In this document: in pieces, positions 6,593-61,772 of the stretch
Numbering within the stretch: the first letter of the stretch is position 1
Layout of the letters: each line of letters starts with the position of its first letter
Assembly (NCBI GenBank): GCA_963969595.1
Contig: OZ018413.1
Span: forward strand, 12,699,711-12,763,710
Direction: 5' to 3'
DNA from: Neckera pumila
Lineage: Eukaryota > Streptophyta > Bryopsida > Hypnales > Neckeraceae
Length of the DNA: 64,000 bases
Notes under the pieces: generated by a model
What the model was told of the DNA's origin: nothing
The model's database searches: none
The model's input: only the letters and a program-made list of their open reading frames with translations
Made by a program: the position numbers and the translations under genes

Positions 6593-8472
6593 TTCGGTTT
6601 CCCGGATCTCCAGGACGGATCACGATCTCCGCAATGGCGACTCAAATCTGCGCAGCTTTGGAGTTCTTCGACATTTGGTGTTGTTTGCAGCAGCATTTGA
6701 GCAAGAGCATCGGGAGTCACGGGCGAGTCAATAGTGACGGCCCACTGTCGAATTCTTCGTCGACGAGGATGAACAGAAACAAACGAAAATCAAACGAAAT
6801 AGCCTCTTAGGCCAGTGTTTTGCTAAGTATTTTAAAACTCTCTAGAGCAGTGATCCCAGAACTGCTTTACTGAATTTAGTACAACATGCTACCTCAGTTA
6901 TAGGTTTAGTGCAATATGCTACCTCCAAGACAAATGGGCATCAATTTTGGCTACCTTGAGAGTGATTAGTATTAAAAAAAATAGAAAAGATAGGATTTTC
7001 TATTTTTAAAGGATTATTGGGAGTACTATAATATAAAACTAACAAAATAGATGCTAATTCCAATGTAGAGGAAGTTGCACATTGGCTACCAAATTCTATT
7101 GTTTGTTGCAATCTTGACTAAAATCTAATTTTTTCAACGATTTTTTCCAATACACTTTTAGCTCCTGAAAATTTTTAGTAGCAATGGAGCAAAATTTAGC
7201 CACTTCTGTGAACGTTGCTCTAGAGTTGTGACGACAAAATATATCATGTAGTTGTTTTGGGATCTATACCTTTAATGAGGTTGTTTGTTTTGTTTTGTTT
7301 ATACGATGATATGTAACAAACTATGAGGCGTCCAATGGCATTCTTGGTACCACTCAAAAGCTCTTGACAAGGAGGGATGCATGGACTTTGTTTTGTGGTG
7401 TTTGGACCTATAGTGTTAAAGTTATTGAATTTCAAAGTTTTTATGAATAAAAAAATTGAATGAAATTCTTTTATTTTGGAAAAAACATAACTTTTATATC
7501 ATGAGTCCAAACGCCACAAAACAAAACCCTTGCACTCCTTTATGCATAAAAATTTCTATTTGTGGTGTTTGGACCGACAGTGTGAAAGTTATGGATTTTT
7601 CAAAATTAAAAATGGAATTAAATTATCTTTTATTTTAGAAAAAACATAACTTTCACATTGCATGTCCAAATGCCACAAAACAAAGCCCTTGCACTCCTTT
7701 GTGCATAAAGCTTTCTATTCATACTAAGAACGCAAACTCACACTACGGTGCAAAAGTTATTGAATTTCAAAGTTTTAATGAATAAAAAAATTAGAAAATT
7801 ATTTTTCTTTTACTTTGGTTGTGGCAACGGCACAAGGCACACTAGTATAAGTAAATTGATCTTTAAAGTCTTGAGAATTCTTATCTCTTTGGTCCCTTAT
7901 TTGAATCTAATTTTAAATTATTTTTGAATTTTATTTAACTTGTATTTTTTTAGATTGATAACAAGGCATGATTGCATGCAATCAAATCACATTGAGTTGT
8001 CTCCTTCCTATTTAGAATTTTAAATTCCATCCTCAAAAATAAATGATCAAAAGTTTTTTGCATTGATTGAAGTGCTAGTTTGCATTTTGATAGGATTTTG
8101 TGATTTAAAGTTTGAATATGGCTTTTACACTTCAAGTATTTAATTACGTTTGACTTAGTTGTATATCCTTGCATCTTGTTGTCTAAGAGCATCACCACCC
8201 TTACATGGCCAATGAGCTTGGGACAGCTAGTGTAGAAGCCAAGCTTCAAAACATCCCCCACCCGTGCAAAGCCAACAAAATTAATTCTACATGCATGGCC
8301 CCTCAAATCAAAGCTTTACACACCATTTTTTAGGGTGTAGGAAAATTTTGAATGAGACCATTTTGTGGAGATTATCTATGTCATTTTCATATTTTAGAAC
8401 TTCCCTAATACCTCCAAAGGATAGCTCCCACTGCGAGTAGGACACTTCTATTGATTCAAGGCAAACTTCATC
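6593..8472. other. AT-rich intergenic region with no gene recognised
   Basis: The first 150 bp or so upstream of the phytol kinase start are GC-richer and probably hold its promoter and leader. The rest is AT-rich. The only structure seen is the alternating inverted-repeat array listed separately. Small open frames here are not supported by any recognisable domain. Confidence 0.6.
7383..7790. repeat. Array of alternating inverted and direct copies of a module of about 50 bp
   Basis: A module containing TTTGTGGTGTTTGGAC and AAAGTTAT appears in one orientation at about 7383-7428 and 7556-7600. Its reverse complement (GTCCAAACGCCACAAAAC) appears at about 7481-7531 and 7636-7690, with a further partial copy at about 7741-7790. 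The direct copies are about 156 bp apart. The alternating orientation lets the array fold into several competing hairpins. A foldback element or nested MITE ends would explain it; no coding capacity was seen. Confidence 0.7.
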
Positions 8473-10161
8473 ATGCTCCATGAGTCCCGGAAGAAACACT
8501 TGAGCTTGTGGCTCGAGGAGGAGGAGGCTGTACGTAGAAGATGGGAGGATCATGATTCCATACCACCCAATTTGGTCGAGGATGTGGTCCCTAAAGATGA
8601 TGACGACAGTGGAAACATTGCAGTAGGCGTTATCAACGACAAATTCCAAGAGCCTATTCCAATGGACGGAATTCCGGAATTGCTAAAGTAGCACATGTAT
8701 GCTGTTGCACCCATGCTTCAAGGTCATCATGGTGTGTACAATAAGCAATTCTTTGGCACTGTCGTTGATATCTACTCCCGCGGCATTCTAGTAGACCAGT
8801 ATTGCAGAAGATGGGAGTTACTGACATTGAGATCTAGGAGAAGTGGAAACACCATCCAGGTGACAAGTACAAGTTTCTAATGGCGTTGTCAACAGACAAC
8901 GCCCAAGTGGCACAATTCCTGGAACACTATCAGCAAGTGTATGGAGGGCAGCCTTGCAATGAGTCCTTTTCTTTGAGGTTCTTACGCGCTTGCTTTGTCA
9001 CGTTCATACACAAGGTTGAAATAGATTGGGTGAAAGAGGCAGTCAAAAGGCACAAAGGTGCAAATGGAGCAGAAGAGCCTAAACCGGCATAAATTAGGTC
9101 TTGTAGAAATGCGCCAACAACTTGCTACTTTGTGCGCAGCAGTATCTCTTTACTACTGACTTCCCGAGAGCACAACCGGCAGTCAGTTGCCTATGTCTAC
9201 AATTGTTTCCAATAGGTCTCTGGGGACCAAGTGGCACAAAAGCAGCAAGAGACATTCACATAGTAGAACAAGTTCTCCAACAGTAGCAAGGGCGGAAAGC
9301 AAATTGCGTGGATTCCTAAAGGTAATGAAATCCACGCAACCTGCTCCTGAAGGCAATGGAAGAATCAGTCAAGGCTCTGATTGCCATAGAGAGAGATGAA
9401 CGGGCCCTAAACGTGCAGTACACAGCTTTGGTTGACAAGGCTAAGGCGATGCAACTCGAAGGTGCGTACGAGAGTGCCATGGCAAAGTTGAGGGTTGGAC
9501 AACAATTGGTGGACAAATTGATTTCAATAAGGGAGAAGCATGCGAAATCACTTGACTCCTGTCAGGCCATTTGAGCTTCAGCGTTGCCGGAGGCACTGAA
9601 GGCAATTGCGCATTCAAAAATGTGTGTTGCCACCGTCATAGGGAAGTTTTGGAAGCTCAAAGGTTCTTCCTTTGCAGTGCAACCGAGAGCTCCTTTTGTA
9701 TATCCAGCAACTTGTTCTGAACGTTCATTGTCAATTACAGGACCTAAACTTTGTACAGGCTGTAAGAAAGGTTTTGTAGCACGGGCTGTGATCATTGCTT
9801 CTTGTGGTTGTGGATTTCACCCTATATGCATTGCCTTATTGCTGGAAGAGAATAAACATACGTGTCCTTGTTGTGAGACCGCATTTTGTGGAGCTTGGAT
9901 GGCTCAATTAGGGGTTCTTCTTACATCCTGAATGGAGCAGGATGTTGACAGCATGAAAAAAAGGCTAGAGGCCGAAGCACCCCTAAAGACAGGTGAGTTG
10001 ATTCCACTTACCTCTCTGGCTAAGCATGCTTCTTTTTTTCTTAGTTCATTAATACCTAAACCATATGTACATGCATTGTATGTCTTGCAGTCATGGAGCC
10101 AGGTCTCGAAGAAGTGAAGGGTGGGGAGCTGAATCTACCTTCCATACCACCAATGACATGA
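8473..10161 (+). pseudogene. Decayed gene with a coiled coil and a RING/PHD-like zinc finger
   Basis: The coding signal is spread over three frames with in-frame stops (8689, 8878, 9090, 9572, 9929), so this is a degraded copy. An acidic segment opens it (from the ATG at 8473), followed by a helical segment (about 8835-9092). A likely coiled coil runs 9356-9571. A Cys/His cluster at about 9752-9874 reads CTGC, 13 residues, CGCGFHPIC, 11 residues or so, CPCC, which resembles a RING or PHD treble-clef finger with one ligand unclear. A genuine intron is visible: donor AG/GTGAGT at 9993, acceptor TTGCAG ending at 10090, and a last exon in phase ending TGA at 10159-10161. The gene faces the transposase-like pseudogene tail to tail, 299 bp away. 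I do not recognise the family. It could be the accessory gene of the same mobile element or an unrelated host gene copy. Confidence 0.55.
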
Positions 10162-10460
10162 GAGCTCGGTGATGGTGACTGGTCCAAGGTAGTGTTTCTA
10201 ATATACTTTAAGTTTTAACTAACTTCAAACTTGCACTATCACGCTCAATGATATAAGCATGTACAGCTTTTGACAAGTGACAGTTGTAAAAATGGATAGT
10301 TTTGAACATTTGAATTCTAGAATATGTAATATTAACATTCAGTGTTTTCAACATCACTACTATAACTTATATGTCCGAACTCCTATACGTCAGATGCTTC
10401 CACATGGTCCATCTAATTCGAGTACGTTGTCAACAACCACCTTGCTTCAATATTTCGATT

Positions 10461-13400
10461 CTAGAGGTTGTTCATGTCTTCAATACCCTCCTCTGCTGCA
10501 ACTTTCACCCAAGCTCTCCCTTTTCGTGTTCTATTCTCCCTCCACCTTCTAGCTACATTCAGCCCGTTTGATGTAGTATAGGTCATCTTCTTCTGCAATT
10601 GGGCAGCCATTGTAGGGTCATTGTGCACTGTCTTGATGTTCCTTGATTCTAGCAAGTCCACCTTCTTTGCAAATCTATGTTGAATGTTTCTGTACCAATG
10701 TTGATATTGTTGCACGATGGCACTTGTTCTATCTTTAGTGTCACCATGCTGAGTGTGATGTTGATTAGCCGCCTTCGCTCCATGATGGGATTTTTCCATC
10801 CCTTAGTTGTTCCAAACAGCATGGCTTCCATATGTTTGCACATACCATGGACCATGCCGCACAAGGTTATGCTACAAAGACAAAAATGACCCAAATTAGT
10901 CACACATCCTTAAGGAAATGGCACCCTACATTTGAATCATTTAGAAACAGTTTAGTTACTTTAGCAATACGCAACAATAAACACTAAACCACGGAAAGCA
11001 TAACTTCCATTTTAATTCCAACATCACCCTGAAAGAGAATTACCACGCACGTTTAGAACTTACCATATAATGAGTGACATGGTCTTCTCCAAAGCACTTA
11101 ACATAAAGGCGCCCCCAAGTCTCAATCTTGCCCTTGAAAGTGTCAATTTGCTCTTGATCCAAGGACAAACTGACCAAATATGGTTATATTGTTTCTAGCG
11201 CTTTCCACATTTCTACTCGTTCACGATATTGCCTACCTTAATTGATTGTGTTGTTTTCTGAGCACAAGATGTCCTTCCAAACTTGATCTTGCCTTGACCA
11301 AGTGGATGGTTGGAACATCCTACCAGCAGTCATGCCACTGAGGGAGGGTTTGACAGGGACACTATTGGAAGCACCACTGAGCATTGTGTCCTTCATTATG
11401 TGCACATTGCCACCATGAAGCTTGGTTGCTGACAACGTCCTCTCCATATTTTCTATAGCAACCTGTTGACGGGCCTCATTCTCCATGTTCCAAATGAATA
11501 TGAAGTGCAAGTGAAGGATTTTCTCCATCATCCTTGTTAAGGCATGCAGTGGACAAATATGCACCCTCTCAAGTGGGATGGGCAAAATAGATTTCCATCG
11601 AGATTCTTCTTCAATGGATATTGGTTTCGAGAGGACATTACCAGTAAATAGACCTCCATGCCACGTATGCTTTTTTCTCCTAGCCTCTGAAGTAGCACTT
11701 GTCGATGTTCCCACCACTGGCTTTGTCTGCTCTTAGTTACAATAGATGCAAGAATGAATGACATTGGCTCCATGCTTCGATCTGTACAAGCATTTGATGG
11801 TCTTCATATCTGCAGACAAATGCCACTGTATTTTGAAGTTGCCAACACCGTCAACACATAAGAGTTGGCCCCCATCTTGTGCCTTGATCAATGCTGAAAA
11901 CTGTGTCTATTTAAACACCCACTAGAGGACCTCATGTGACTCCTTAGCAACCTCAAAACAGGCAATAGGCCATATTTTAGTTTCAGATTGAATTGAAAAA
12001 TACCTACCATTGGTTTTTTGAATGCTGGTGTCCAAGGCACGATTCATGAGCGTCAAACTGACCCTTTCAAACTTCTTCCCTTACACAATCTCTGCTTCGT
12101 CCATCTTCAACACAAAAACCAATGGATGGTTCCCAACTTCTGCACATCCAAGCACCATGATTTTCAATGAGTTTTGTTAATGCAAATGTCAAGGTATATG
12201 AGTGAGTTCTAACGGTCCTCTGACTGTTGGAAACATGACTTAGAAATCTACTCTAGCATTCAATAGTCACCTTCGGTGGTGAAACCATATAGCTTCACCA
12301 CAGTCCTCTGCATGACTTCGATGTCAACAAACAAGCTGTTCTTTGATGTCAAGACGACTCGTATTATCTCAGATTTCTTCTTCCTTCCTTTGGCATTGGT
12401 CACTAGAGCTTGTGCCACCACCTCCAACGTACTGTGAATGTGATAATAGTCACCGACAAGATCCTTCAATTTTGAACTAAGTTGTAATAGCAACAACTTG
12501 ACCTAATGAGCGTATTGCATGTTTCATCAATATATATACCACACACCGCATGTGTCATCTATGCATTGCCTCCCTACCAAACTATTGAGGATTGTTCTTG
12601 TTCTATTGTTTAGCATTGTCTATAGATTGAACTAAAGCAACTTGTTTCCAACACGTTTAGCATAGGTCCCTAAACCACAACTCCATAGCATGCGCTAAGT
12701 GCAGAATCCTTAAACCTTAAACCGCATATATCATGTATTGATTATCCTAGATTAACTGAGCATCATGTACAAATTTGTCTCATGCATCTAGTGTTTGGAG
12801 ATACAGTGGAGATTGAACTGATGAACTAGGGTAAGTAAGCCCAAACCTTGTGCGAATTCGGGAGGAAAGTTGGCTTCAAGCGTTTGTCAACAAGCTGCAC
12901 TCTTCTTTTTATTGTCTTGTAGATCTTGCCGTATCCTTTTTGTGACACTCCTATCATGTCATATGCTACCAGTATTGCTTCTGTACCCAAGTCCTTACCA
13001 ATTTTGTCAAGGTAGTAGTTGGCCATTCGAGTTGCAGCAAAAGTATTATTAGGATTTGACACCAAAGCCACTGTCTCCCTTTGCGACACTAATCGCCCAT
13101 TGGCATCACCTATCCCCTCTTGTGGATCCCTGTCGCCACACAAGTGCTTCTTACCGCCTCCACTCTTGTTTCCGTCTTGTATAGACTGAACAACTTGGGG
13201 TTGCAACAAGCTTCTAATTTTTGCTACATGAGCTCTTGCAGCGCCACCAATCTTGGATAATTCAAACATACCCTTGCTTGCTCTTAGTTGCGCGCCTAGT
13301 GGAGTACTTACCATCCTCTCCATTTTCTTCTTTAACTTCCACAACGCCTTTGTGACTTCCACAAGTTCTTGTTTCCCACACGCAAGCTCTTCATGGTGTA

Positions 13401-14303
13401 CTTCATGCACTTGTACCAACTCTTCGGTTGCCTGCAACATGCTGGACTCAAGTTGTTGTTGATGTTGATCAGTAGCTTCCTGATGCTCTTATTGGAGAAT
13501 CACAAGGTTGCTCTTGTAACTAATCTCATTCCTCTCCAACTCTTGTTCAAGTGTTGTATATCGAGCCTTCAGAGATTCCAATTCGCTCTAGAATTTGACG
13601 ATCTCTTCTCTGCTAGTGGCAAAAAGGTCCTTTTCACGCTCAGCCCATCTACTGTTAATAACATCAAGATCAGCCACATGCTTTGCAATTGAATTTTGCA
13701 ATACTACTTTTTCATGAAGACAGTCTGCTCATGTCTTTTCTAATTCCTATTCCAAGCCTTTCATTGCATCGTTGGTGCTAACAAGGTGGTTAGTGTATCC
13801 TAAGAGTCCAGAACTCCAGATTCACCGTGACAAAGGAATTCTGTGTAAGTCTTTAATGTTTGAAATTCCGGTGGCTTCCTAGTGACTATATCCGGTGGGT
13901 AGAGATTGCCATCCAACCACAAATCCATGTTGGTGGCACCTGACGCTCTAAATGCTGGAAATTTGGATTTAGAAAGTTGTTGGTCCACTCGAATGCCTTT
14001 CTTCACAATAGATGCAAATCTACTATGAAGAACTACAGATGTTGAGTAGGAATTACCCTTCTCCTTGTTTGTAACATCCTGAAGTGCCATCTCTGCAAGT
14101 AGATTAAAGTTCCGGCACTGGACGTTGGCAACATGAATGAACCAAACTCCTGCAGCAACGTGAATGAGCCTAAACTCCCGCAATAACTGTGGCAATGTTA
14201 ATGAGCCACCTCATTTGGCGCGAATAATTCCAATGAACTGTACAATGTGTTCCTTGCGAGCATCTCGACGCTGACCACTCCAATTCCTTTCACATTCCCC
14301 CAT
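10461..14303 (-). pseudogene. Decayed transposase-like gene with a RAG1/Transib-like DDE core
   Basis: A possible start ATG is at 14303 (MGECERNW). A coiled-coil region of long heptad-like runs follows (about 13800-13300), then a spliced body. Introns were inferred at about 12499-12842 and 10872-11063, both GT...AG and in phase. Motifs in order are KMDEAEI (Asp codon 12099-12101), DGVGNFKIQW, SADMKTI (Asp codon 11808-11810), CIYC (11739-11750), VHICPLHALTRMMEK (about 11531-11575), and finally GMEKSHHGAK. The spacing of about 97 residues between the two Asp and about 271 from the second Asp to the Glu position is close to RAG1 (108 and 254). The Glu position itself is a TAA stop at 10803-10805. 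Many other stops and a frameshift near 13805 show that it is dead. The family name is inference; other RNase H-fold transposases also use a CxxC...H pattern. Confidence 0.6.
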
Positions 14304-17300
14304 GATCGTCAACTAGTGTGTACAGTGCAAGTACAATAATTTCAGGTGGTGGATTCTAAATCCCAACTCCTAAATCCTTCTCTACACTTACATCCCAAGT
14401 CATTTAATATTTGTAGGTTACAATAAAATAGTTGTCAAAATACAATATTCAATTAGACATGATCACTACGGCCAGTGCTGAGGTACACACGGCCATTGCC
14501 AACTTGACAATACTCTGCCTCTCAATTGCCAACTCGGCCTATGCCGCCTTGTTCCCATTGGCCCACAGAATTGATGGCAACTTCTGAAAATGACTAAATG
14601 TTCGGAATCAAGGCTTTTGCAAATATCAAACAATTCATTTCTACGGCAAAAGTACCAGGCATCTAGAGCCCCAAATTTGGCTCTAATGATTTGGAAATGC
14701 AATATCAACTATATTGCTCTACATGGGATGTTATAATGAAGTGTGTGAATTTCCTTTTGTCAATTCTAAAGGCCAATGTAAGGTATACATTGTATGTATA
14801 CAAAGTTTTTAGACTAAAGTACTTATAGTGTCTTATTGGATTTATCATAAGTGTTTCAATTTAATGAATTGTCTCACTTTAATGAAGTGTTTAAATTAAT
14901 ATCCACTAAATGCATTAAATTTCAAAATATTAAAATTAAAAAAAGAATTTGAATGTTAAATTTTCAAGTTCTTGGTATTTTTTTAAAAATAATGGTACAA
15001 GATTTTATTATGTATTTTGGCATACTAAAGTCTTAGTTTATTGTCTCAATTTAATGAATATCTATGACTTCCTAAAAATAATTTGGAATGAAAATGAGAT
15101 TGCTAATTGTCTCATTTTGATTAATAAGGCCTTTCACTACATTTGACTCAAGTATATTATTCACTTGAAGATAGAAGAACTTGTATATATGCAATGTAGA
15201 TGATATGACACATATTGTGCATTCTATCACTTGTTCTATTATTTGAATCCTCAAACCTAACAAAAAAAAAGAATGGATCTATATTTATTATTTCTTAAAC
15301 CAAACATAGTCAGAAACATCTTGTACTTTGCAAGGCCCATCATGTACATATAACAGCTGTTAAATGCAATACAACCACAAGTTGAGCTACAACTCATTTT
15401 GTAACATTTATATTCAACATTCATCTTTGTTGAAACTAGAAACAAACTACTTCAAGTATTATTACTTTTTAGACTATGTGATTCTCCTCATCCTAAATTA
15501 TGTGCAAAAATGACTAGCGGTCCTAGAGGTCCTTTGCTTCCATTTCAATTTCTTACACTTCTATATGTTTATCAATTTGCTCTCTTTATCCTTTCATTAA
15601 TTCTCTTAAAAGAAAAACATCCAATTATCTACTTCTTCATGTTTTTGTGAATAACTATAATTATACAATGTTACTTTTCTAATCTCAAGCACATTTTTCT
15701 ACATATTATAGAACAAGACACAATAATTTCAGGAGGACTTGGCAGCACTACAAGCCTAAATTCTTGCACATTTATAAAACAACATTCACTTTCTACAAAT
15801 GAAGCATGAAATAATCATTGTGGCTCCAACACCTTTCTTCTATGTCCTATCAATAAGTAAAAACTTGTAAGAGATGAATGCATATTCTATTCATTACAAC
15901 CAAGTGACGGTAAATCAATATTCACCGTTCAATGCACAATACCAAGAATTTTTTATGGTTATCATTTTGGAGGTCTTGGAAGTCTTCCACTATTGGTATT
16001 TACTGCTTTTCAATGCTTCTCAACCTTTGCTTTTGCTCAAGTAAAGTCCAAACAAATAAACTATAGATATTGAAGACAACATATATGGCTTTACATTTTC
16101 ACTAATATTTTCCTCAATAAGCTACTCAATGTCTTTTGCACATCAAAAAAGACATCTACTTCAATCACAAATTCAAAACAATTGGACATTGACAACTTAC
16201 AACAAAAAAATTCTTTAGCAAAAAGATAAGCCCCCCCTGTGGACTGAATCCCTCTATAGCTAATTCTTCACTATCAATTTTGTTTCTATACTCTAATTCA
16301 ACTTTGAACCCTTTGCATGACTACTCCTTTCCAATTCCAAACCAATTTTTGGTTTTTTGATTTAATTGTCACCTTTGCCCTTACACTAGTCCTTGTTGCT
16401 TGTATTTGGACTGGATAATAGACATCTTGCTTTTTCACCTCTTTCAATAGCACTTTTGTTAACTTCTTGTGATTGCAAACTTTCTATGTATTGAATCTTC
16501 ACCTCCCTAGCAACAAGCGCTATTTCTACATCTTAGAGAATATGGCATCTATAAGTGGCATACTTTTGAACAACTCCCATAGAAATTAGCCATTCTAGAA
16601 AGACATCAATGATGGAAATACATTGTGTTTTCCCCTCTCTACAATGACATTCAAGGAACGTATACATAGAATGTGTTATCGCATGTTCAAATGTTGATAG
16701 GTTTTCATCCACTACTAATATAATTTTACATCCAACTTAAATGTCTGACAAAAGCTTTAGTAGCTCTACCACATGCTACTATTGTTCAATAACTTCTAAA
16801 TCCATTTATAGCCTTTCCATTCAATGCATATTAGCATAGCAAGAAATTTGTTGGTAGAATAACATATTGATGGTGGTGGCACTAACTTTTATCAAAAAAA
16901 ATGAAGTAGTAAAAGATGGCAATAACTAAAAACAAATAAACCAAGCTAATGAATGGCTATTACACATGGCTTTTTTGGCTGCCTTTCCCATTTTCCAACC
17001 CACAAGTCTTCTCTAATCTTAATACTTGTAGAACAAAATTTGTACTACAAAATTCTAAATTGTATAAAAGGCTTTATATGTACTTAAGTAAAAATTGAAG
17101 AAGTTGTGTTTAAATTTATCTTGATTGATAGAAATGGTCTTGTAATATACAGTAATCTATAAATAGTTTGTATTTTCATATCATTCAATGTTTTAATTTT
17201 TTAAACAATGAAATTGGTAAACATTTTTTTTACCATCTATACAATTGTATAATAAAAGATAATATCTTTGTTTGTTTTGTATAATTAAAACAATGATTTG

Positions 17301-24912: not shown

Positions 24913-25775
24913 CCCCTAAAAGCCCAAGTGTCCATGGGAGGGTTTTTTGGTACTTTGGGCAAGCCCATGTGACCTCAATTTTTCACATGATTTTTTGAAA
25001 CTTTTTTGGGAGATAGGAAATCACATTAGCTTCGCGGAAAGATAAATTTCGACTTATCCTCCAAAAGTTATGAGCATTTGAAAATTAATTTCAGTTCGGG
25101 AATCTGCTGCCCTTCAGGAATCTGACTTTGACTCTCAAGGGGGCAGCAGAGGTGGCAAGAGAGGAGAGGTGGCAAGAGAGGCTATTGTTGTGCCTATTGG
25201 AAGGTCACATGAGGCTTTAGGAGCTTGTAGATGTTAGAGATTTTGACATTTTTCAAATTTTCTTTTTCCTACTTCTAAAATACAAGTGCATCTTTCAATC
25301 CACTTTTCAGATTTTCTAGATCAAAAAATGTGTGATGGGATTTCTTTTTTGAAAATGGCCTATTGTATTGTCATTTCTTAGGACATAGTGGCAAATTTTA
25401 ATTTTTTTGAATACTGGGAAGGTCTTGGATTGCCTTGAAAACTGGTATGCACATGCCTAACATGTTCCCCCATAAGAAAAAATTATAAACTGGAGGTCTG
25501 TAGTGGAAAAAAATTTAGCAAATGGCGGTCAAAGGCATCTGAAATTTTCGGGCACAGTGGAAAGAAAAAAAAAAATAGACTTTCAATGCAAATATCTCCC
25601 AATCTATACGGTCAAACCTCACGAAATTTTTACCACATGTTCTCACACAAGTTAACTACAAGATCCAATGGTTACATTTCCAAAAAATCAATTTTTCAAA
25701 CTTTTTTGATGAATGCTCTAGAAATGGCAGTTTTGGGTGTTTTTTGATGTAGAAAAGGCCTTGGGCTCTTAGGGG
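24913..25775. mobile_element. TTAA-flanked MITE, family A, copy 1 (863 bp)
   Basis: The left end is TTAA followed by CCCCTAAAAGCCCAAG; the right end is the inverse, CTTGGGCTCTTAGGGG, followed by TTAC (a mutated TTAA). The TIRs match over 16 bp with one mismatch. Internal blocks, such as the one with ATTTTTACCACATGTTCTCA and the block with GGCAGTTTTGGGTGTTTTT, recur in the copies at 42856-43772 and 49746-50672. TTAA target sites with CCC-starting ends are the hallmark of piggyBac-type transposons. No transposase is present, so this is a non-autonomous element. Confidence 0.75.
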
Positions 25776-25779
25776 TTAC

Positions 25780-28532
25780 ATTAAATTTGATTTCTTTACT
25801 TTTGTAAGCTTAATTTTTTTCTAAAATTTGCTTCATTATGCCTTAATGGCCTCTAATGTTTGATAAGTTTAAAAAGCACTAGATTTTTAAGTGAACAAAA
25901 AAATATTTGTTAGCCAAAATTTTAAAAAAAAACTTTTGTTTCTTTTACTAATTTGAATATTCTACTAATCAAACTAACAAAGTTATGTATTTCTTTTATT
26001 CACTTGTACCAAAATCAACTAAAAATAATAAAAATAGACAATACAATACCCTCTCTAATAAACGTTTTTTGAGTTTTTTTTTATTTGGTTATTGTTTTTC
26101 AACTAGTGATGGAAGCAAATATTTGTACTTCTATCCTTCAATCCATAGTAACTTTAGTTGATATTGTTATGATTTTAGCAAAGGCTCTTGACCTTCTAAA
26201 GACCAAAAACACAATTGCTTTGGTGGAAAGCAATGTTAGGAAATTGCAATTTTAGTAAAAATACAAAAACACTCTCTTTTCTCAGCAATTTACAAAATTG
26301 CAATGCCTCAAAGACAAAGTGCAAGAGACTTTCTCTTTGTTGAATATGGTTGGTGCCTTTATTTATTAGGATTTCCATCATTTGAAGAAGTTTGTAGGTA
26401 ATATCACAATTGATTTGCTTCACCATTTTCATTTTGCCAAGCGTGCCAAGTATTATTTGATTAATCCAAGTGCATTTATTATAATAATCATTGGAGATAC
26501 TATTAATGGCACAAATGATCTCCAAGAATTGAAAGCTTTGGTCTTATTTCCTACAAATTCTAATTCTATATTGTTGCAAAGAAAAATAGATTTAAAAGAA
26601 CAAAACAAAATGCAGTAAGAGTATTTGTTAGAGTTAGTAGCCACATACCATCATAAAAAGGTCACGTGCATCTTTCCTACAGACTGAGCACAACAATGTG
26701 TAGAGAAATTGGAGAAAATTTCAAAAAACTTTGTTGTACAGTTTTTAAATTAGAGTGTAATCTCACATTGTTGGCCTTATTAAAAGACAGGTTTTTTGAT
26801 ACATGTCCATGCTAGACTTTGTAGAACAAGATCTATTAGGTTGGACACAAATTGCTTGGAATAACAAAAATCAAATGTTCAACCATATTGAAGTAAAGGT
26901 GTCACATCCCTCATTCTAAAGCCTACATGTGCCACCTTGGTGAGCAAGGGAGACCCTACGGGTGACTGCCCTAACCTTTGCAAGAGATAAGATGAGGCAA
27001 TTGTGAATCACAAGCAAACAAAGCATTTTAGCGCTCTAACCAAGACAAATTGGATGGCGTATTTTGCATGCCTAGAAAGTTAATGAAAAGATACATCCAT
27101 GAATCTAAAGAATGCAAGGATTCAAGTTGGGAGTCAAAAGTTATGGCTCCTCAAAGTTGGCAATGTCTTGTCTCGGTTGCAACTTCAAGGTAGGAGGCTT
27201 AAAAGTAGGTGTTCTAGAAGAAGCCTAGGCCAATTAGGGCATGCCACATATCATTGGAAAGTTATTGAGACAAGAATCTAGAATATTAAGGCTCATAAGA
27301 ATATAAGCTTCAAATTAAAAGTTATGAATGGCCAAAGAGAGGAAAGATCCAAATAACTCCTCCTCTTTGGGGGACTTGGATCTTTGGAGGGCCTTAAGTT
27401 TCTTAATATTTGTTGCAATTAATAAATTAAAAAGCCTACAATGATCTATGGAAAGTTTAGATTAAGAAAATGAACTTGCATGCTAGATCTCAAGTTTGGA
27501 GCTAAGAATTATCCTATTGAAAAGATTGGAGAAGTTTTGAGGCCCCTTTTTGGGTCTAAAGGTAGAAATTGGGTGGTCTTTCAAGATGAGGTGTATCTTA
27601 GAAGTTGCCGGTGACACCAAGAGAGGGGGTTTGTCAAATGCCACAAAGGATACTATGAGAAGGGGTGGTTTCCCTCCTTACTCCTAGATGGTGCCATGGT
27701 GGGCTATAGTAGCTATGTCAGGTAAGGCAAGTGTTGGGGCCTCACCACCATTAGTGTGTTACTATAGAATGCTTATGCACTCTTTGATACTAGTTGGGTA
27801 GTATTCTGCTCTATACTAAGTCAATATTTCCATCCTAATTGGTGAGTCTTAGTTGGTGAGTCCTCTGGTAAATCTCTAATAGTATTGTTTGGACCTAGTG
27901 TAGAATTGGAAGCTGTTTAAGGGCGGTTAGCACCAATAGCGAATAGTGTCTCCATTGAGTGCTTTGACATCAATGGAAGTTCCATCCCATGTCATCAAAT
28001 GACAAGTTCAGTGTCTTGTAGGAATTTAGTGAAGGGACTCTTGAGGAATGGGGAACCCATGATTAAGTGTTAGAATTTAACATTGTAGATGGATGGCATG
28101 TGTAGTGTTAGAAGATTGTGACTCTTAATGTCACTAGAAGCTAATTGCTACAAAAGCACTTTGAAAGAACTTAAAGCTATAAGTGTCACTAAAGAGCACG
28201 TTAAGAGATTTAAAAGCTATTTTGGCGGCATCTTATATCTTTTGTTTTGGATTACACCAAATGCCTAATATGTCAAGAAAAATTTGGCTTGAAAGGTAGT
28301 CATGCACTTGAATCATGTGCACATGTATACTACCATTAATGTCTTATTGCACAGTGTCTAATAGATGGCATTGCAGTTTGTATTCCACACCTCTTTATGA
28401 TTTTTGTATGCCATATTCAACTTGATGAATTGCATGCCAATTTTTTGTAAACACAAAAATGATACAATAGCAAATACAACAGTCTAAGTCCCAATTTGAA
28501 ATTTGCAAATCACATCTATATGGTCTAGAGAG
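25780..28532. other. AT-rich region between mobile elements
   Basis: No gene was recognised. Short frames at about 26100-26650 (plus strand) run together with stops and might be remains of an old mobile-element ORF, but I could not identify a domain. The stretch from 26900 to 28500 is slightly less AT-rich and repeat-like. Confidence 0.4.
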
Positions 28533-29450: not shown

Positions 29451-29489
29451 TTTGTCTGTTAAGTTAGTCGTTCTGTCAAGTGGATCAAA

Positions 29490-30500
29490 ATGTCAAATAG
29501 TGCCGACGTTGGTATGATAGAGTCTAAACTTGACTTTATATTGAAGGTCGTAGAATCATTGTCCATGAAGACAAATGTTTTAAAAGATTTTGTTGCAAAA
29601 AACCAAAGAGTAGATGAGACATCGCACTCTATACCGGCTACTTTGTTTCCATCGCCAAGTTTATTTTCTCAAAGCTTTGATCCAAAAGTCTCAACCATCA
29701 AAGAACCAATAATTAGTCTTCCCAAGAAAGTTGATGGTTTTTGTTCAAAATTTCGAGGATTTGTAAATCAAGTTCAACTCATTGTTGCTCTTCATACTCA
29801 AGAGTATCCAACAAACGATTTGTGGGTGGGCTTGGTTGGAAGTTTGCTCACTAGATAAGCTTTGTCTTGGTTTGCACCACTATTTGAGACAAGGTCTATC
29901 ATTTTAAGCAACTTCAATACGTTTTTAGCAGCCTTTGCTAAAGCATTTGGAGAACATGACAAAGAATGTTGGACAACAACAAAAATCCATTCTCTGCAAC
30001 AAGGAGCACGCTCGGCTTCAGTATACGCATCTGACTTTCAACAGCTAGCGTGTGACATTAATTGAGGCAAAGAAGCGCTTGTGAGCCAATTTCAATGGAG
30101 CTTAAGAGACAACGTAAAGGATCTATTATTATCATTTCCAGATCCTCAAACATTCAATGAAGCCATAAGTCAAGCTGTGAAATACGACAATTGATTATTT
30201 CAAAGGCGCTAAGATCGGAAGTCTGTGATTGCATCAGCACCAAAAATAAATTTTGTGCCAACAATCAAGGCGGCACATATTACAAATAATATTTCAAGAA
30301 TCAGAAGACATGCAATTGATGCTTTACATTTTTGACCACTTAGCGCATAAGAAAGAAAACAACGTCTTGACAAAGAGCTATGTTCATATTGCGGAGAATC
30401 TGGCCACAAGGCAATTAATTGTCAAAAGAAGCAAAAACAACCCCCCATGAAGACAAGAAGTGCAAGTATGTCAAAAAACAAAAATGCTCAGCCACAATAG
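29490..30500 (+). pseudogene. gag: Chromovirus gag (disrupted), with CCHC zinc knuckle
   Basis: The Gag polyprotein forms the retrotransposon capsid. It starts at the ATG at 29490 (MSNSADVG). The capsid-like region contains WVGLVGSLL and SWFAPLF on either side of a TAG stop (29856-29858), and a further stop lies at 30063-30065. More stops follow near 30195. The nucleic-acid-binding knuckle is intact at 30381-30422: CSYCGESGHKAINC, the canonical C-x2-C-x4-H-x4-C. All pieces lie in one frame, so simple point stops explain most of the damage. Confidence 0.85.
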
Positions 30501-30628
30501 GGATCGTGCGGCTTGAACCTTCTATTTTTCAGACAAATCCAGGTTTTGACCTTTCTTCTCAGCCTTCTCATTGCTTTATTATACTTCTACGTTTGGGCTC
30601 GTAAGAGAAATTACAAGCTCAAGCTCTC

Positions 30629-30898
30629 TTGGATTCTGGAGCTTCGGCTTGTTTTTTGGATGAGGAATTTGTAAAAATTTACAAGCTTTCTCTAGTTAAA
30701 AAAACAAAATCCATTCATATAGAAGCGATTGACGGACAAACTCTATCTTCAGGAGATGTCACTCATGAAACTATAACACTGCAAATCTTGTTCAAGGGAC
30801 ATGTTAGCACAATTGTGTTTAATATTATTAAGACTCCATCCAATCCTATCATCTTGGGGCTATCTTGGCTTGAAAAGTATAATCCAATTATAAACTAG
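30629..30898 (+). pseudogene. pol (PR): Chromovirus aspartic protease domain
   Basis: The retropepsin active-site motif LDSGASA is at the start of this block, and the ILGLSWLEKYNP motif typical of Ty3/Gypsy proteases is near its end. The frame is shared with the downstream reverse transcriptase. A TAG at 30896-30898 interrupts where NP.I.W is expected, so a Trp-to-stop change is likely. The domain would cleave the Gag-Pol polyprotein. Confidence 0.85.
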
Positions 30899-30997
30899 AA
30901 GTCACGAAGCCTATCATTTTCTTCAAGAAACTTTGCAACAACATGTTCTCTAAAACCTCTAATTGGCAAATCTGTACTTACTAAAGCTAAGGCTTAT

Positions 30998-32722
30998 ATG
31001 AAAGTTGCAAAGGAGGGCAATTTGTATGTTATCTACGCAATTCCGATGCGCGAAGAAAATACCATCTCATCGAGTATTCTAAAACAGTACAAGGTTTTTG
31101 AAGATGTGTTTGAAAAGGAAAACGCAAATATGCTACCAAAACATCGTCCATATGATTGCGCTATTGATTTGCAAGATGGAGCTCAACCACCATTTGGCCC
31201 GATTTACAATTTATTGCAAAATGAGCTTTTTGCATTAAGAGAGTATATTGACGAAGATCTTGCAAAAAAATTTATTCGACATTTAAAGTCACCAGCAGGA
31301 GCATTGATACCCTTTATGAAGAAAAAAGACGGTTCTTTGTGGAGGTGTGTTGATTATCGCGACCTAAATAAAATAACGGTAAAAACTAGATATCCATTAT
31401 CATTGATAGGCAATCTTCTTGATTAACTTGGACAAGCTAAAATCTACACCAAGATTGATCTTTGTGGAGCATATAATTTGGCGCGCATAAAAGCGGGGGA
31501 CAAATGGAAAACAACATTCCGGACAAGATATGGACATTTTGAATATAATGTCATGCCGTTTGGTCTTACAAATGCGCCAGCTATATTCCAGCATCTTATG
31601 AATGACATTTTTTGCAAATATTTGAATCAATTTGTTGTGTGTTATCTCGACAACATATTGATTTATTCCAAAAATGTAGAAGATTACAAAAAACACGTAC
31701 GACTTGTATTACAAAAGCTATGGAATGCCGGGTTATACGCTAAACTAGAAAAATGAGTATTTCATCAACTGCAAGTGGAGTTTCTTGGATATATCATTTC
31801 CAATGAGGGACTATCGATGGATTTAAAGAAGATTCAAGCTATTACAGAATGGTCGACTCCACAAACAATGTACGACGTACAATACTTTCTCGGATTTGCT
31901 AATTTTTATCATGCTTTTATCAAAAACTATTTGCAAATAGCGGCTCCACTAACTTGCCTCACATGTAAAGACAAATTAGATTGGAGTTTTGATGTAGAAA
32001 AAGCTTTCCAACATCTCAAGACCGCCTTTACAACAGCTCCAATTTTGGTCCACCCAGACTTTACCAAACCATTTTTTATGGAAACAGATGCTTCAGACTT
32101 TGCATTAGGAGCAGTCTTCTCTCAAATGGGAGAAAAAGGAAGACTCCATCTAGTTGCATTTTATTCTAGAAAATTTTCAGGTGCCGAGATCAATTATGAG
32201 ATTTACAATAAAGAACTTTTTGCTATCGTGGATTTGTTTGAAGAGAGGCGTCATTTACTCGAAGGTGCATCAGATCAAGTGATTGTATATACAGATCACA
32301 AAAATCTTGAATATTTCATGTCAGCTTGCATATTGAATTGTCGTCAAGCTCGTTGGAACTTGTCGCTATCCCGTTTTGACTTTGTTATCACGTACCGCCC
32401 TGGAAAGCAACAAGGACTATTAGATGCCTTATCTCGGAGGTCGTATTTGGTGCCGAAGGAAGGAGAAGCGGCATACGACCAACAACAAATGATTCTTTTG
32501 AAGCCCGAGCGGTTCCAACTTCATGCAATAGTCATGGCAATGCCCATTGACCCTTCATTTCTTGACCAGGTCCGTACAGCATCAAATATGGATCCTTCCT
32601 TTCTTGACATTCAGCGTCAATCTCATAATGATGATGACAAATTCAAGCTATTGGACAAACTTTTGTATTTCGAGGAGCGTCCATATATTCCTGAAGGCCT
32701 TCTACGCCTTCAAGTTCTCTAA
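30998..32722 (+). pseudogene. pol (RT-RH): Chromovirus reverse transcriptase and RNase H (disrupted)
   Basis: RT blocks occur in order: MKKKDGSLWRCVDYRDLN, then KIDLCGAYN, then [19 protein letters not shown], then the active site YLDNILIYS (31643-31654). The usual YLDD has become YLDN. The thumb region starts FLGYIIS. RNase H follows with TDASDFALGA, NKELFAIV and YTDHKNLEYF. The reading frame is constant but stops occur at 31424-31426 and 31754-31756. The Asp-to-Asn change in the catalytic pair would on its own abolish polymerase activity. Confidence 0.93.
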
Positions 32723-32989
32723 GCTTGATATGATTTTATTACTGCTGGACATTTTGGATTCAATAAAACACTTGAACTCGTGTCACAAGATTTTTGGTGA
32801 CCACAGATGTAGAAACTTGTCAAAAACTTTGTGCTTTCTTGTGACACTTGCTCCAGATCCAAGAATCCTCAACATCGACCACATGGACTTCTTCAGCCAT
32901 TACCTATATCAAAATGACCATGGTCTTCAATTTCTATGGACTTCATCACGGATTTACCTCCATCGGCATCCTTTGATTTTATATGCTTG

Positions 32990-33986
32990 ATTGTAGATTG
33001 ATTCATAAAGATGGCGCATTTTATTCCGTGCAAGAAGACAATTGACAGTGAACAAATGGCAAAACTCTTCTTTGATACTATTTATCGATATCATGGACTA
33101 CTAGATGATATTGTATCAAACCGCGGACCACAGTTTATTTCCAAATTTTGAAAATCCTTATTCAAAACATTGAAGGTGAAGATCAATCTTTCTTTTGCCT
33201 TTCATCCACAGACAGATGGGCAAACATAGCGTGTAAATCAAGTACTCAAGCAATATCTGCGTTGCACTGTCAATTACCAGCAAGATGATTGGAGTTCTCA
33301 TTTAACATTGGCGGAATTTGTGTACAATAATACGGTACATGCGTCTACTGGCCAAACACCATTTTATGCCAATTATGAATATCATCCAAAGTTTGACCTA
33401 TTCAATATTTTTGAGATGGACAATCCGACAGCCAAAGATTTAGCTTTGAGATTATCAGAACTTCAAGACATTATGAAACTTCTTCTACAGGAAGCTCAAG
33501 AACGTTATAAGTCAACAACAAACATATTATGGAAAGATTTGTCTTCATTCCAAGTTGGTAAAAAAGTTTGGCTTCTCCGATGACATATCAAGACAGCTCA
33601 ACCATGATTGTGACAAATTGGATTTTTGGCGATTAGAACCATTTTCCATCCAAAAACAAATGAATCCAATTGCTTATCAATTGGAGCTTCCAGCATCTAC
33701 AAAGGTCCATCCGATATTCCACGTGTCTCTTCTTGAGTCGTATAAAGAGTCAAACTTGCCAGGACAAAATCAATTGCCTCCCCCTTTTATCGAGATAGAT
33801 AATCATGAAGAATATGAGGTAGAAACAGTCCTTCATTCTCAACATAGATGTGGCAAGCTAGAGTATTTGGTTCATTGGCGCGGATATGATATTCATGAGC
33901 GCACATGGGAATTAGCTAAAAATCTAGCCAATGCGTCGCAAAAGATACAGCAATTCCATCGGCATTATCCTAATAAACTACAATAG
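32990..33986 (+). pseudogene. pol (IN-CHD): Chromovirus integrase core and chromodomain (disrupted)
   Basis: The integrase core is recognisable from KMAHFIPCKKTID through VSNRGPQF to HPQTDGQT and AEFVYNNTVHASTGQTPF. Two of the three catalytic acidic residues are lost: Asp of the VSDRGPQF motif is Asn (33119-33121) and Glu of the QTERVNQ motif is a TAG stop (33227-33229). The last part (about 33808-33960, EEYEVETVL to YLVHWRGYDIHERTWE) is a chromodomain, which targets integration to marked chromatin. A frameshift separates the core from the chromodomain frame near 33555. The zinc-binding region at 32720-32900 is too degraded to read. Confidence 0.9.
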
Positions 33987-42855: not shown

Positions 42856-43772
42856 CCCCTAAAGGACCATTGTCCCTTCGGAAGACAAATGCGTTTTTGG
42901 GCAAGTACCTACGGGCTGAAATTTTCTTCTGATTTTTTGAAACTTTTTTTGGAGGTAGAAAAGCTGATCATCTTCATGGGAATATAATTTCTTTCACAAT
43001 CGGTGGTCGGGAACAAAAGTTATCACCAAATAAGCTCAAAACAGGGGACGGCGGGCAACAAAAAAAATTTGCAATTTTTTTTTTTTTTTAAAGTATTTTT
43101 TTTCTCATAGATTATATTTTTGTCTAGAAAGCTTTGATTCATTTCATTTGGATTTTCTATGAGAAAGTTATGGACATTCTTGTTTTTTGGGTAGTTAGAG
43201 CATCTTTTTGAAAAAAATAACTTGTGAGACTCATTTCTGAATGCAATTTTTCAAATTTTTCAATTTTTTTTTTTTGCATGGTTTAGTTTACTTGCTAGAA
43301 CAATCTCACCATTGGGATTAGTGCATTTTAATCCTAGCTAAAATATATGAATATTTTAGATTTTCCTTCTATCTTGTACCTACTTCTACTTAATAAATTT
43401 TTTAATAATGAAAATTAAGTTTTTTTAAACTTTTTTATTTTGGCTAGATTCTTAATTCAATTCTCCAATATAAACATTAAAAGCTCAAATCTCTGTAGTG
43501 CAAAAAAATAAAGTTAAAAATGTTCAAAGTCAAAAAATCTAGTTCCCCAATGTGCTGAAAAACTTGTTTTTTTCACTTTAAACGCAGATATCTTGCAACC
43601 TGTGCGGTCAAAAATTCTGAAATTTTTTCCACACACTCTCATACTAGTTAGGTGTATGATCCTACAATTAGACGTGGGAAAAAAACATTTTTCAAATTTT
43701 TTTATTTTTTGCTATAGAAATGGTAGTTTTGAGTGTTTTTGGGCAGACAAAAGGGCCTCGATCCTTTAGGGA
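42856..43772. mobile_element. TTAA-flanked MITE, family A, copy 2 (917 bp)
   Basis: TTAA at 42852-42855 and 43773-43776 flanks ends CCCCTAAAGGACC and the inverse GATCCTTTAGGGA. The internal order matches copy 1 at 24913, including a GAAACTTTTTTTGGAGGTAG block near the left end and GGTAGTTTTGAGTGTTTTTG near the right. It is non-coding. Confidence 0.78.
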
Positions 43773-44372
43773 TTAAAGATAGTCCATTCATCCTTGATCT
43801 TGAACTTGTAGTTCTCAAAAAACTTGTCACTTTTTCCTTCATTGCATTATTGTCAGGATAAAATAGAAGGAGTGCTTCATCATCATGAAAGATAAGTGAG
43901 AAAAAAATGCCATCATTGCTTGGAGGAAACTTGGAATGTCCACATTCCAATGTAGAATTTGAGATGGCAGGTTTGAGATCCTTGGAACACAAAGACCATT
44001 TAGATATTCTGCAATTATGAGGTCTAAGGTAGGTCTTTTTTGCACTTTGCCATAAAAAAAGTACTTTTTGCCTTCACCCACCTAGAAAGACAAATTTCAA
44101 GAATTTTATTAATGATTGAAGATGTAAAAGTCAAAGAACATCATAAATTAAAAGAGATGGATTTTATAAAATATATAAGTTTTCATAATAAGAAAACATC
44201 AAAACACGAGGGCCAATATTAAATATATAATGGAAGAGGTACATAAGCGAGAGTGCTTGATGAATAAATATCAAATCAGACTCACCAGAAAATTAATAAA
44301 ATTATCTTTAATGTAATTTACATCATGATTTATTCAGGTTGTTTATTCATAATTTTTTTGATTAATGGTAAC

Positions 44373-47169: not shown

Positions 47170-47888
47170 TCACATCTTCAGCACTTTGCGTCCGGCAATG
47201 ACAGCACCAGATTCCGCCTCTGCTTCTGCACCCGCATCCACAGTTTCCAGAAGAGACGGGCGACTGCAAACGTTGAACGCCAGGTTGCCGAAGTTATTCG
47301 ACACTCGCCTCTCCACGTTGTACAGGGTGGTGCTCCCTACGCTTCCGTCCGCCTTCGTGCACTCCGCAGCCACGCCCTGGTTGTCCGTGCCCAATTGGTA
47401 CCACCGGATGTTCTTGCACGACCTTGCAAACCCTTCCCCGTCCACAAGGTTTCCGTTATTGTTGCTGATGTGCGCGTTCAGGTCGAGACTGGCTCGGCTG
47501 AATCCTCCTTGGCCGTTTCCGCAGATGCATGTCAACCCCCCCCCCGTGCTCACCTGTATGCCGCTGCAGCTCAGTGCGAAGCCACCGCACTGCACTTCCA
47601 CACAGCAAAACTTCCAGCATCAGATCATTATCACATTAAATTGCTCGGTAACTTGTGCACGTGGCCCCCTAAGGTGATCGCATATCTGGTAGGAACATGA
47701 TAATCAACAGCAATCAAGCATTGCGATCGTAAAATATCATAGATAATATGTACACAAAAAACTATGCATTATGCATCTAAAGGACAAAGCTAACGTACGT
47801 CTGCTTGGGCGAAGGTGGAGAGCAACGCAAATGTGCACAGGAGTGCTGCTGCAGTGTAGGCAGCGCGAGCTGGTGATCGTGCAGCCAT
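47170..47888 (-). CDS. Secreted cyanovirin-N homology (CVNH) domain lectin, 169 aa
   Basis: Two minus-strand exons, 47799-47888 and 47170-47589, join in phase across a 209-bp intron (donor GAC/GTACGT, acceptor GTGCAG). Exon 1 starts with ATG at 47888 and encodes a signal peptide (MAARSPARAAYTAAALLCTF then ALLSTFAQA). The mature part is a CVNH domain: GGFALSCSGIQV, LTCICGNGQGGFSRASLDLN, ISNNNGNLV, FARSCKNIRWYQL, AAECTKADGSVGSTTLYNV and NNFGNLAFN. The two pseudo-repeats and paired Cys fit the mannose-binding CVNH fold. The domain is followed by an acidic tail of about 30 residues not usual in CVNH proteins. CVNH proteins are known from ferns, liverworts and fungi, where they bind high-mannose glycans. 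The role here is inferred to be secreted sugar recognition or defence. Confidence 0.93.
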
Positions 47889-60503: not shown

Positions 60504-61772
60504 CACTACAACAGAAAGCAATGATTGCAACACACTAGCAACGCATTTGCAATGGTTTTGCAATGAAAGAATGTGTAACGGAACTTAGTTTGGAACTCAA
60601 AAAAGAAATAATGCATTGCAAAACCATTGCAAAGTTGTGATTAATTCAATATAAAAGTATTGGACATTGAATCCATGCTATTGCATTTCTAAATTGTTGC
60701 AAATTCATAAAACTTAAAATGCAAAATCATAAAAAAAATGTAATTGTTGTGTGTAGAAGTCATTGCAAAATCATTACAAAGTCACTGCAAAACCATTGCA
60801 AAACCATTAAAATTAAAAATTAAAAAATTAAAAAATTCTGCCCACCCCCAGCAACCCAACCCGCCCCCAATGGGCAGCTTAATCAACCTCTCAACCCCCG
60901 GTCAGCCCAACCAAACCACACACCCCTGGGCAGCCAATCCAAACCACACACACCTGGGCAGCCAATCCAAACCACAGACACCTGGGCAGCCAATCCAAAC
61001 CACCACCTCAACCAAATCCTCCCCCTCAAAGAATTGAACCTTGCACCTCATGCATGAGGTGCAAGGTCTGATGACTAGTACACCATTCAAAATTACAAGT
61101 GACTTTAAAGGGACACGGTTTTGATTTATTTGATTTCTGTTTCTCATTAGTTGTAAAATCAGCAGACTTTGGAGGTCATTTTGGCGTAGTATAAAAACTT
61201 TTTTTGTAAAACTTTGAACTAAGAAAAGTTGGGAAGTAAAGTAATCTTTCATCTCCAAAAAATCATTTCAGATTTCAAGTCTCCAATCAAAGGTTATGGA
61301 CATAATTCAAAGAGGTGTTTAAAAATGTCAAAGAAAATGTTCATTCCAACCCCTCTCTCAAATTTGTTCATGACTTTTGATCGGAGACTTGAAATACCAA
61401 ACGGGTTTTTGGTGATGAAGTTTCATTTCATTTACCAACTTTTTTTAATTCAAAGATTTTTGAAATTTTTTTTCCTACTATGCCAAAATGGCCACCAAAG
61501 TCTGCTGAGACTAAAAATCACCAAATTATGATTCCATTGCAAAACCATTGCAAACACAGTGCAATACTATAATTTAAAGCATTACAAAATTGATAAAACA
61601 AACTTGCATGCAAGGCAAAACCATTGCAAACACAATGCAATACTTTATATTAAACATTGCAAACACAATGCAATATTTTATATTAAACCATTGCAAAGTC
61701 ATTGAAACAAAATTTGTGGGCATTGCAAAACCATTGCAAAAAGTATTGCAAACGCTGCATTCTCTTGTAGTG
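60504..61772. mobile_element. CACTA-type (CMC/EnSpm) MITE inserted in a coding exon (1269 bp)
   Basis: The left end is CACTACAACAGAAAGCA; the right end, inverted, is CACTACAAGAGAATGCA. GGA flanks both sides (60501-60503 and 61773-61775), the 3-bp duplication expected for CACTA elements. Subterminal repeats of TTGCAATGGTTTTGCA and its inverse crowd both ends, like transposase-binding sites. Removing the element and one GGA joins the flanking codons into one open frame (KSKM then ELENYIFYKAYA), so it landed inside an exon. It has no transposase. Confidence 0.93.
60925..61008. repeat. 28-bp minisatellite, three units, inside the CACTA MITE
   Basis: CCTGGGCAGCCAATCCAAAC recurs at 60925, 60953 and 60981, exactly 28 bp apart. 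It adds a C-rich core to an otherwise AT-rich element. Confidence 0.85.

Follow-up and report, generated by a model that had tools for sequence, protein, structure and literature searches.

A decayed, left-truncated DNA transposon with a probable RAG1/Transib/CACTA-type transposase in the genome of Neckera pumila

The 64,000-nucleotide stretch of contig OZ018413.1 from Neckera pumila that was analysed here (the window) contains two decayed genes that converge upon each other, and it raises the question of whether they are the remains of a plant transposon related to RAG1. The enzyme that diversifies vertebrate antibodies came from a clade of transposons whose plant members beyond CACTA seem to be little described. 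A first-pass annotation, made from the letters alone, had read positions 8473..14303 as the relic of a two-gene, tail-to-tail element with a RAG1/Transib-like transposase. Based upon the results presented below, the feature is very probably the decayed remnant of a large plant DNA transposon that moved by cut and paste and has lost its left part; its transposase would be an Asp-Asp-Glu (DDE) enzyme belonging to the RAG1/Transib/CACTA-type (CMCT) clade.

The limits of the element were determined by blastn comparison with 10 close copies, 85–90% identical to the window copy, that were fetched from the assembly. The assembly searched comprises 339.5 Mb in 18 contigs, and a 164-residue piece matched it at least 135 times, with each fragment of a broken copy counted separately. 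The relic proved larger than first annotated: it extends from about 8422 to 14688 (no strand assigned) and represents about the right 6.4 kb of full copies of ~14.8 kb. Among themselves, the close copies are ~93–98% identical over long blocks. At the right end all 10 stop at exactly the matching base, beyond which their flanks diverge, and the end that they share marks the right terminus of the window copy (14644..14688, no strand assigned), an inverted terminal sequence reading outside-in 5'-CATTAGAGCCAAATTTGGGGCTCTAGATGCC. The terminal ...CTAATG is common to these 10 copies (family 1), the window copy and two copies of a second subfamily. Nine family-1 copies were read to both ends and measure 14,341–15,483 bp; the tenth, copy B, was read to its right end only, and counts of left ends cover nine copies. 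Both family-1 ends start CATTAGAG outside-in, with imperfect inverted repeats, and CATTAG opens the left end in eight of these nine copies, the ninth deviating at its first base, and likewise in the two subfamily-2 copies. The inverted repeats of subfamily 2, of which copy K is 12,936 bp long, are of 33 bp, agree at 30 positions and start CATTAGAAAGA; CATTAGA termini are present in both subfamilies. Searches for terminal inverted repeats (TIRs) inside the window found none, the left end of the element being missing from it. Full-length elements also carry short tandem repeats with a unit near TAATACTTTAGTTTCATTATTCCATAATGATTGG (L009, ~63–180; L015, ~240–430), the number of which varies among copies.

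The transposase pseudogene occupies 10462..14303 on the minus strand. Its exons (~14303–12847, 12502–12271, 12139–11064 and 10871–10462) were delineated from translation, GT-AG junctions and homologues, and the three introns between them (12846–12503, 12270–12140 and 11063–10872), identified by comparison with relatives and from the junction letters, have GT-AG ends. The motifs that had first suggested RAG1 are present on this strand where they had been placed. The first aspartate codon (Asp 1, in KMDEAEI; 12099..12101) is a near-invariant column of an alignment of 15 rows that includes the window (A1), and the second (Asp 2, in LSADMKT; 11808..11810) is invariant in all 15. A CxxC motif (CIYC; 11739..11750), whose cysteines are proposed zinc ligands comparable to C727/C730 of RAG1, is seen in A1 20 residues past Asp 2. 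The candidate catalytic glutamate codon (in GMEKSHH; 10794..10796) aligns with E962 of RAG1, and an H-x4-H motif (10854..10871), supported by the copies, the relatives and the hhalign comparison, precedes it by 25 and 20 residues, as do H937/H942 in RAG1. All of these features are on the minus strand. In the spliced protein, the distances from Asp 1 to Asp 2, Asp 2 to CxxC and Asp 2 to Glu are 97, 20 and 274 residues, as compared with 108 (D600–D708), 19 (D708–C727) and 254 (D708–E962) in RAG1 as read from the PDB alignment; the first two agree with the earlier reading, and the third replaces its estimate of about 271.

Homology, as judged from sequence comparisons, is the strongest test of the reality of this gene. 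An exon-3 query retrieved 65 relatives (29–76% identity, best E 4.9e-196) and an exon-4 query 21 (best E 3.3e-52). In addition to Asp 2, the invariant columns of A1 include the Glu-Arg of an ERVS.TLMNRAL block, a V-H-x-C-x-L-H-A block and others. Regular-expression counts in the exon-3 relatives were 47/65 for Asp 1, 55/65 for the Asp 2 block and 56/65 for C[IL]YC, where many of the misses are proteins that begin at or downstream of the motif and others have variant letters. The Glu block MEKSHH is present in 21/21 exon-4 relatives, both histidines of H-x4-H are found in all four that are long enough (P0070–P0073), and the spacing between H-x4-H and Glu is retained in 10/10 close copies and both subfamily-2 copies. 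Exon 3 contains six stops in 358 codons in the frame of the gene, versus 13 and 22 in the other frames of the same strand, and 8473–14303 holds six stop-free runs of at least 110 codons versus 1.8 on average and at most five in 200 Markov-generated versions. An open 382-codon stretch spans exon 3 in six of the 10 close copies; of the subfamily-2 copies, one has a stop just ahead of GME and the other further on. Between the subfamilies, the non-synonymous divergence of exon 3 (dN) is 0.385 and the synonymous divergence (dS) is saturated, a pattern compatible with selection on the protein. This signal is much weaker among the six close copies (dN 0.017–0.031, dS 0.018–0.050, with dN exceeding dS in one of 15 pairs). 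A search with the whole read-through protein gave no relatives, likely because the length filter drops exon-sized predictions. Pfam contained no transposase match to the window protein at E<=10 or to the 15 A1 members at E<=1, and no relative was found in viral contigs, prokaryote contigs or phages.

For comparison with RAG1, the spliced family was turned into a profile and aligned with residues 598–1010 of mouse RAG1 by hhalign. One clear local match was obtained, EDHVTHYM-HNLVRHGPWYVQTYGSHAVWNNxGME (the hyphen marks an intron), which covers 34 ungapped columns at 32% identity (score 34.9, P 0.001, probability 21%). None of 800 shuffled RAG1 controls reached this score (best 30.1), and reversed RAG1 scored 17.4. 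The match sets the family Glu on E962 and H-x4-H on H937 and H942, with a tryptophan six residues ahead of the glutamate in both proteins. When a 76-residue block (a typed hybrid sequence) was searched against PDB, all 15 entries listed at E<=10 were RAG1 (best E 0.063). In global mode hhalign gave nothing sensible against mouse RAG1, RAG1 598–927 alone did not match the family profile, no sequence similarity was found outside the Glu block, and a search with a nine-row profile (A5) did not recover RAG1. In the structural comparison, RAG1 was the best VIA-align match of a model predicted with moderate confidence, 17 RAG1 rows standing well above the rest, with the Glu outside the matched range; other transposase families were not among the matches listed, which excludes nothing, and the Foldseek list for the family model contained no RAG1. 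In a separate single-sequence fold, a RAG complex chain (6cg0_B) ranked 19th by Foldseek (E 1.1, TM-score 0.19), and this was taken as noise. To our knowledge, RAG1, RAG1L and Transib are the sole members of the clade with solved structures, and hence the structural match does not single out RAG1/Transib. A DDE-type transposase with the arrangement of RAG1 is supported by the structure match, the Glu block and the positions of H-x4-H and CxxC, and we infer a DDE enzyme with an RNase H fold that belongs to the CMCT-type clade.

The target duplications of 5 bp expected by the first-pass annotation were absent once the copies had been aligned and their termini located. Three or more matching flank bases were found in none of the nine family-1 copies and two bases in two of them (E and I), and the flanks of the two subfamily-2 copies share at most one base. 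For three insertions, uninterrupted paralogues of the joined flanks were identified: L046 (196/200 identical) and L047 for copy A, L048 and L049 for copy C, and L050 together with two window repeats for copy F. The five comparisons with L sequences at these three sites were gapless within 30 bases of the junction. Copy E also read through without extra bases, over only seven comparable left bases versus L050; copy J was too diverged for this check, and D, G, H and I were without an empty site. Where it can be checked, insertion neither duplicates nor removes bases. Separately, window positions 25616–25790 and 43591–43795 are members of an abundant repeat that was hit elsewhere by copies E and F.

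The companion pseudogene lies on the plus strand at about 8473..10163. Its translation, and comparison with a copy counterpart and a paralogue, reveal an N-terminal domain, a coiled coil and a C4HC3-order finger, with a last intron at ~9992–10091 (start approximate); the convergent gene with a coiled coil and C-terminal finger that had been annotated is real. The finger (C-x2-C-x13-C-x-C-x2-H-x2-C-x11-C-x2-C; 9752..9874, plus strand) is RING/PHD-like and gives a weak Pfam match to zf-RING_2 (E 0.012, under the curated cut-off). Pfam searches (E<=1; window protein E<=10) gave no Kelch or PHD match for the companion, with weak RING matches as the only ones, nor a transposase match for the companion genes; as no Kelch domain was detected, the gene is not a recognisable RAG2. 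By blastn, transposase and finger gene are both present in 10/10 close copies, nine of them read to both ends, and the fuller copies, when checked for a division into separate units, contain both inside one TIR-bounded element. The two genes thus belong to a single unit, and the tail-to-tail pairing first proposed is borne out. In copies E and D this unit comprises a plus-strand gene near the left end (~1.0–2.0 kb; about 970–1960), a minus-strand coiled-coil/finger gene (~3.1–4.9 kb), a plus-strand finger paralogue (8.4–10.0 kb) that is the counterpart of the window companion, and the transposase, which runs from 14.3 to 10.5 kb. The two finger paralogues are 24% identical (E 4e-28). The left-end gene, without a Pfam match at E<=1, is retained at ~44% identity in subfamily 2 (copy K, assembled from L038+L039+L042, element positions 1163–1924). 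Finger genes were not detected in either subfamily-2 copy at E<=0.01, and the transposase is thus not always accompanied by one. Their products would probably serve as accessory subunits in transposition or in silencing control.

How do these characteristics compare with those of known systems? CACTA/EnSpm elements are large multi-gene plant elements with a CACTA terminus and a 3-bp duplication, and the RSS (recombination signal sequence)-like heptamer of Transib/RAG-like ends begins with CAC. The present family has CATTAGA ends and neither a CACTA terminus nor a CAC heptamer, and its insertions show neither a 3-bp nor a 5-bp duplication. The hallmarks of the CMCT clade given in PMC12730594 (excerpt) are C(2)C and H(3-4)H motifs, ends that are mostly 5'-CA..TG-3', and duplications of 2–5 bp. 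With CACTA/EnSpm and other CMCT members the family shares both of these motifs in the interval from Asp 2 to Glu, CA..TG termini and a large, multi-gene organisation; it differs from them in its CATTAGA ends and in that the window protein has no Pfam match at E<=10. The 2–5 bp duplication of the clade is lacking: of the nine family-1 copies none has three matching flank bases and two have two, neither subfamily-2 copy has as many as two, and the empty sites at three insertions are seamless. The likeness to RAG1, the only protein used for this comparison, includes a similar predicted fold, a CxxC ~20 residues past Asp 2, H-x4-H at 25 and 20 residues and W at six residues before Glu, and the ZnC2/ZnH2 site of Transib/RAG-like enzymes is matched by sequence position; the coiled-coil N-terminal half and the confinement of similarity to the Glu block set the family apart from RAG1/Transib. 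RAG-like transposons have convergent genes and mostly 5-bp duplications (excerpt of PMC7204232). A convergent transposase and finger-bearing gene within one TIR-bounded unit recall ProtoRAG/RAG-like elements, whereas the undetected Kelch propeller, two finger paralogues plus a third gene, and zero duplication do not. Spy (PHIS) is a TIR transposon without target duplication that prefers AAATTT targets (excerpt of PMC4482050); AAA|TTT targets were seen in none of nine insertions here, in a comparison made on target sites. Overall, the family probably works like the CMCT clade and descends with it.

The main doubt about novelty is whether the element is a copy of Lanisha and has in essence already been described, for which we see a slightly better than even prospect. 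Lanisha is a cut-and-paste superfamily proposed in Repbase Reports 2020 (Maumus, McDaniel, Carey) and placed in the CMCT clade (excerpts of PMC12730594); based upon this published description only, clade, motif set and mode of movement are the same, whereas members of that clade give 2–5 bp duplications and none is seen here. The first-pass premise that plants have no well-described element of this kind is weakened by Lanisha and by 39 Transib-like proteins reported from plants (excerpt of PMC9435367). Literature searches on plant, fern and moss RAG1-Transib-type elements, covering titles and abstracts in the licensed PubMed Central subset, returned no description of the present element. Two of the Lanisha authors, McDaniel and Carey, are moss researchers. 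The assembly gave 49 matches to the light-harvesting family (PF00504), as expected of a photosynthetic eukaryote and most likely a land plant, and these matches together with its 339.5 Mb in 18 contigs would suit a moss.

A plant branch of Transib/ProtoRAG proper, in which the transposase would be RAG1-like and its partner a degenerate relative of RAG2, appears improbable. RAG1 is the closest solved structure found, the spacing of H-x4-H and Glu is that of RAG1, and the convergent companion ends in a C4HC3 finger; however, the structural match is not discriminating, the 5-bp duplication is absent and the termini are CATTAGA, Pfam gives no Kelch match, and the finger gene is doubled in one subfamily and not found in the other. 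What stands of the original RAG/Transib-type reading is a DDE transposase with the RAG1 arrangement. We consider it no more likely that the resemblance reflects convergence among transposases of the RNase H fold (hAT, KDZ, MULE or another superfamily). The restriction of sequence similarity to one block and the Foldseek list would fit this view, but the ungapped H-x4-H-W-G.E register, the 17 RAG1 rows and the lack of a matching Pfam transposase model (E<=10 for the window protein, E<=1 for the A1 members) argue against it. Equally unlikely is that excised elements were joined into breaks by end-joining repair instead of by zero-stagger transfer: no copy of the nine has a duplication of three or more bases, in keeping with this view, but small deletions would be expected, and the five junction comparisons at three sites revealed neither loss nor filler.

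For a CMCT-type transposon, we suggest cut-and-paste movement in which an RNase H-type cleavage would occur at the CA..TG ends, with one zinc presumably held by CxxC and H-x4-H, as the ligand positions in the sequence indicate. The ends would then be joined to directly opposite target phosphates, and with zero stagger, repair would leave no duplication. More tentatively, and with considerable doubt, the usual stagger of the clade may have been changed to zero in a plant superfamily within or next to RAG1/Transib, distinct from Lanisha and with duplicated coiled-coil/zinc-finger partners. A multicopy plant family with the zinc and catalytic layout of RAG1 but no duplication would offer a way to study how target stagger is set in this enzyme class, and whether partner genes with a finger evolved on more than one occasion.

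Elsewhere in the window, pieces of a Ty3/gypsy-like retroelement are present at 29463–33986, where the frames 31757–32722 and 33477–33986 match reverse transcriptase-RNase H and a C-terminal chromodomain (Pfam). Pfam assigns a cyanovirin-N homology (CVNH) domain (E 1.5e-16) to an open frame on the minus strand at 47170–47619, and tandem repeats of 28 and 33 bp are located at 60894–61007 and 61618–61697.
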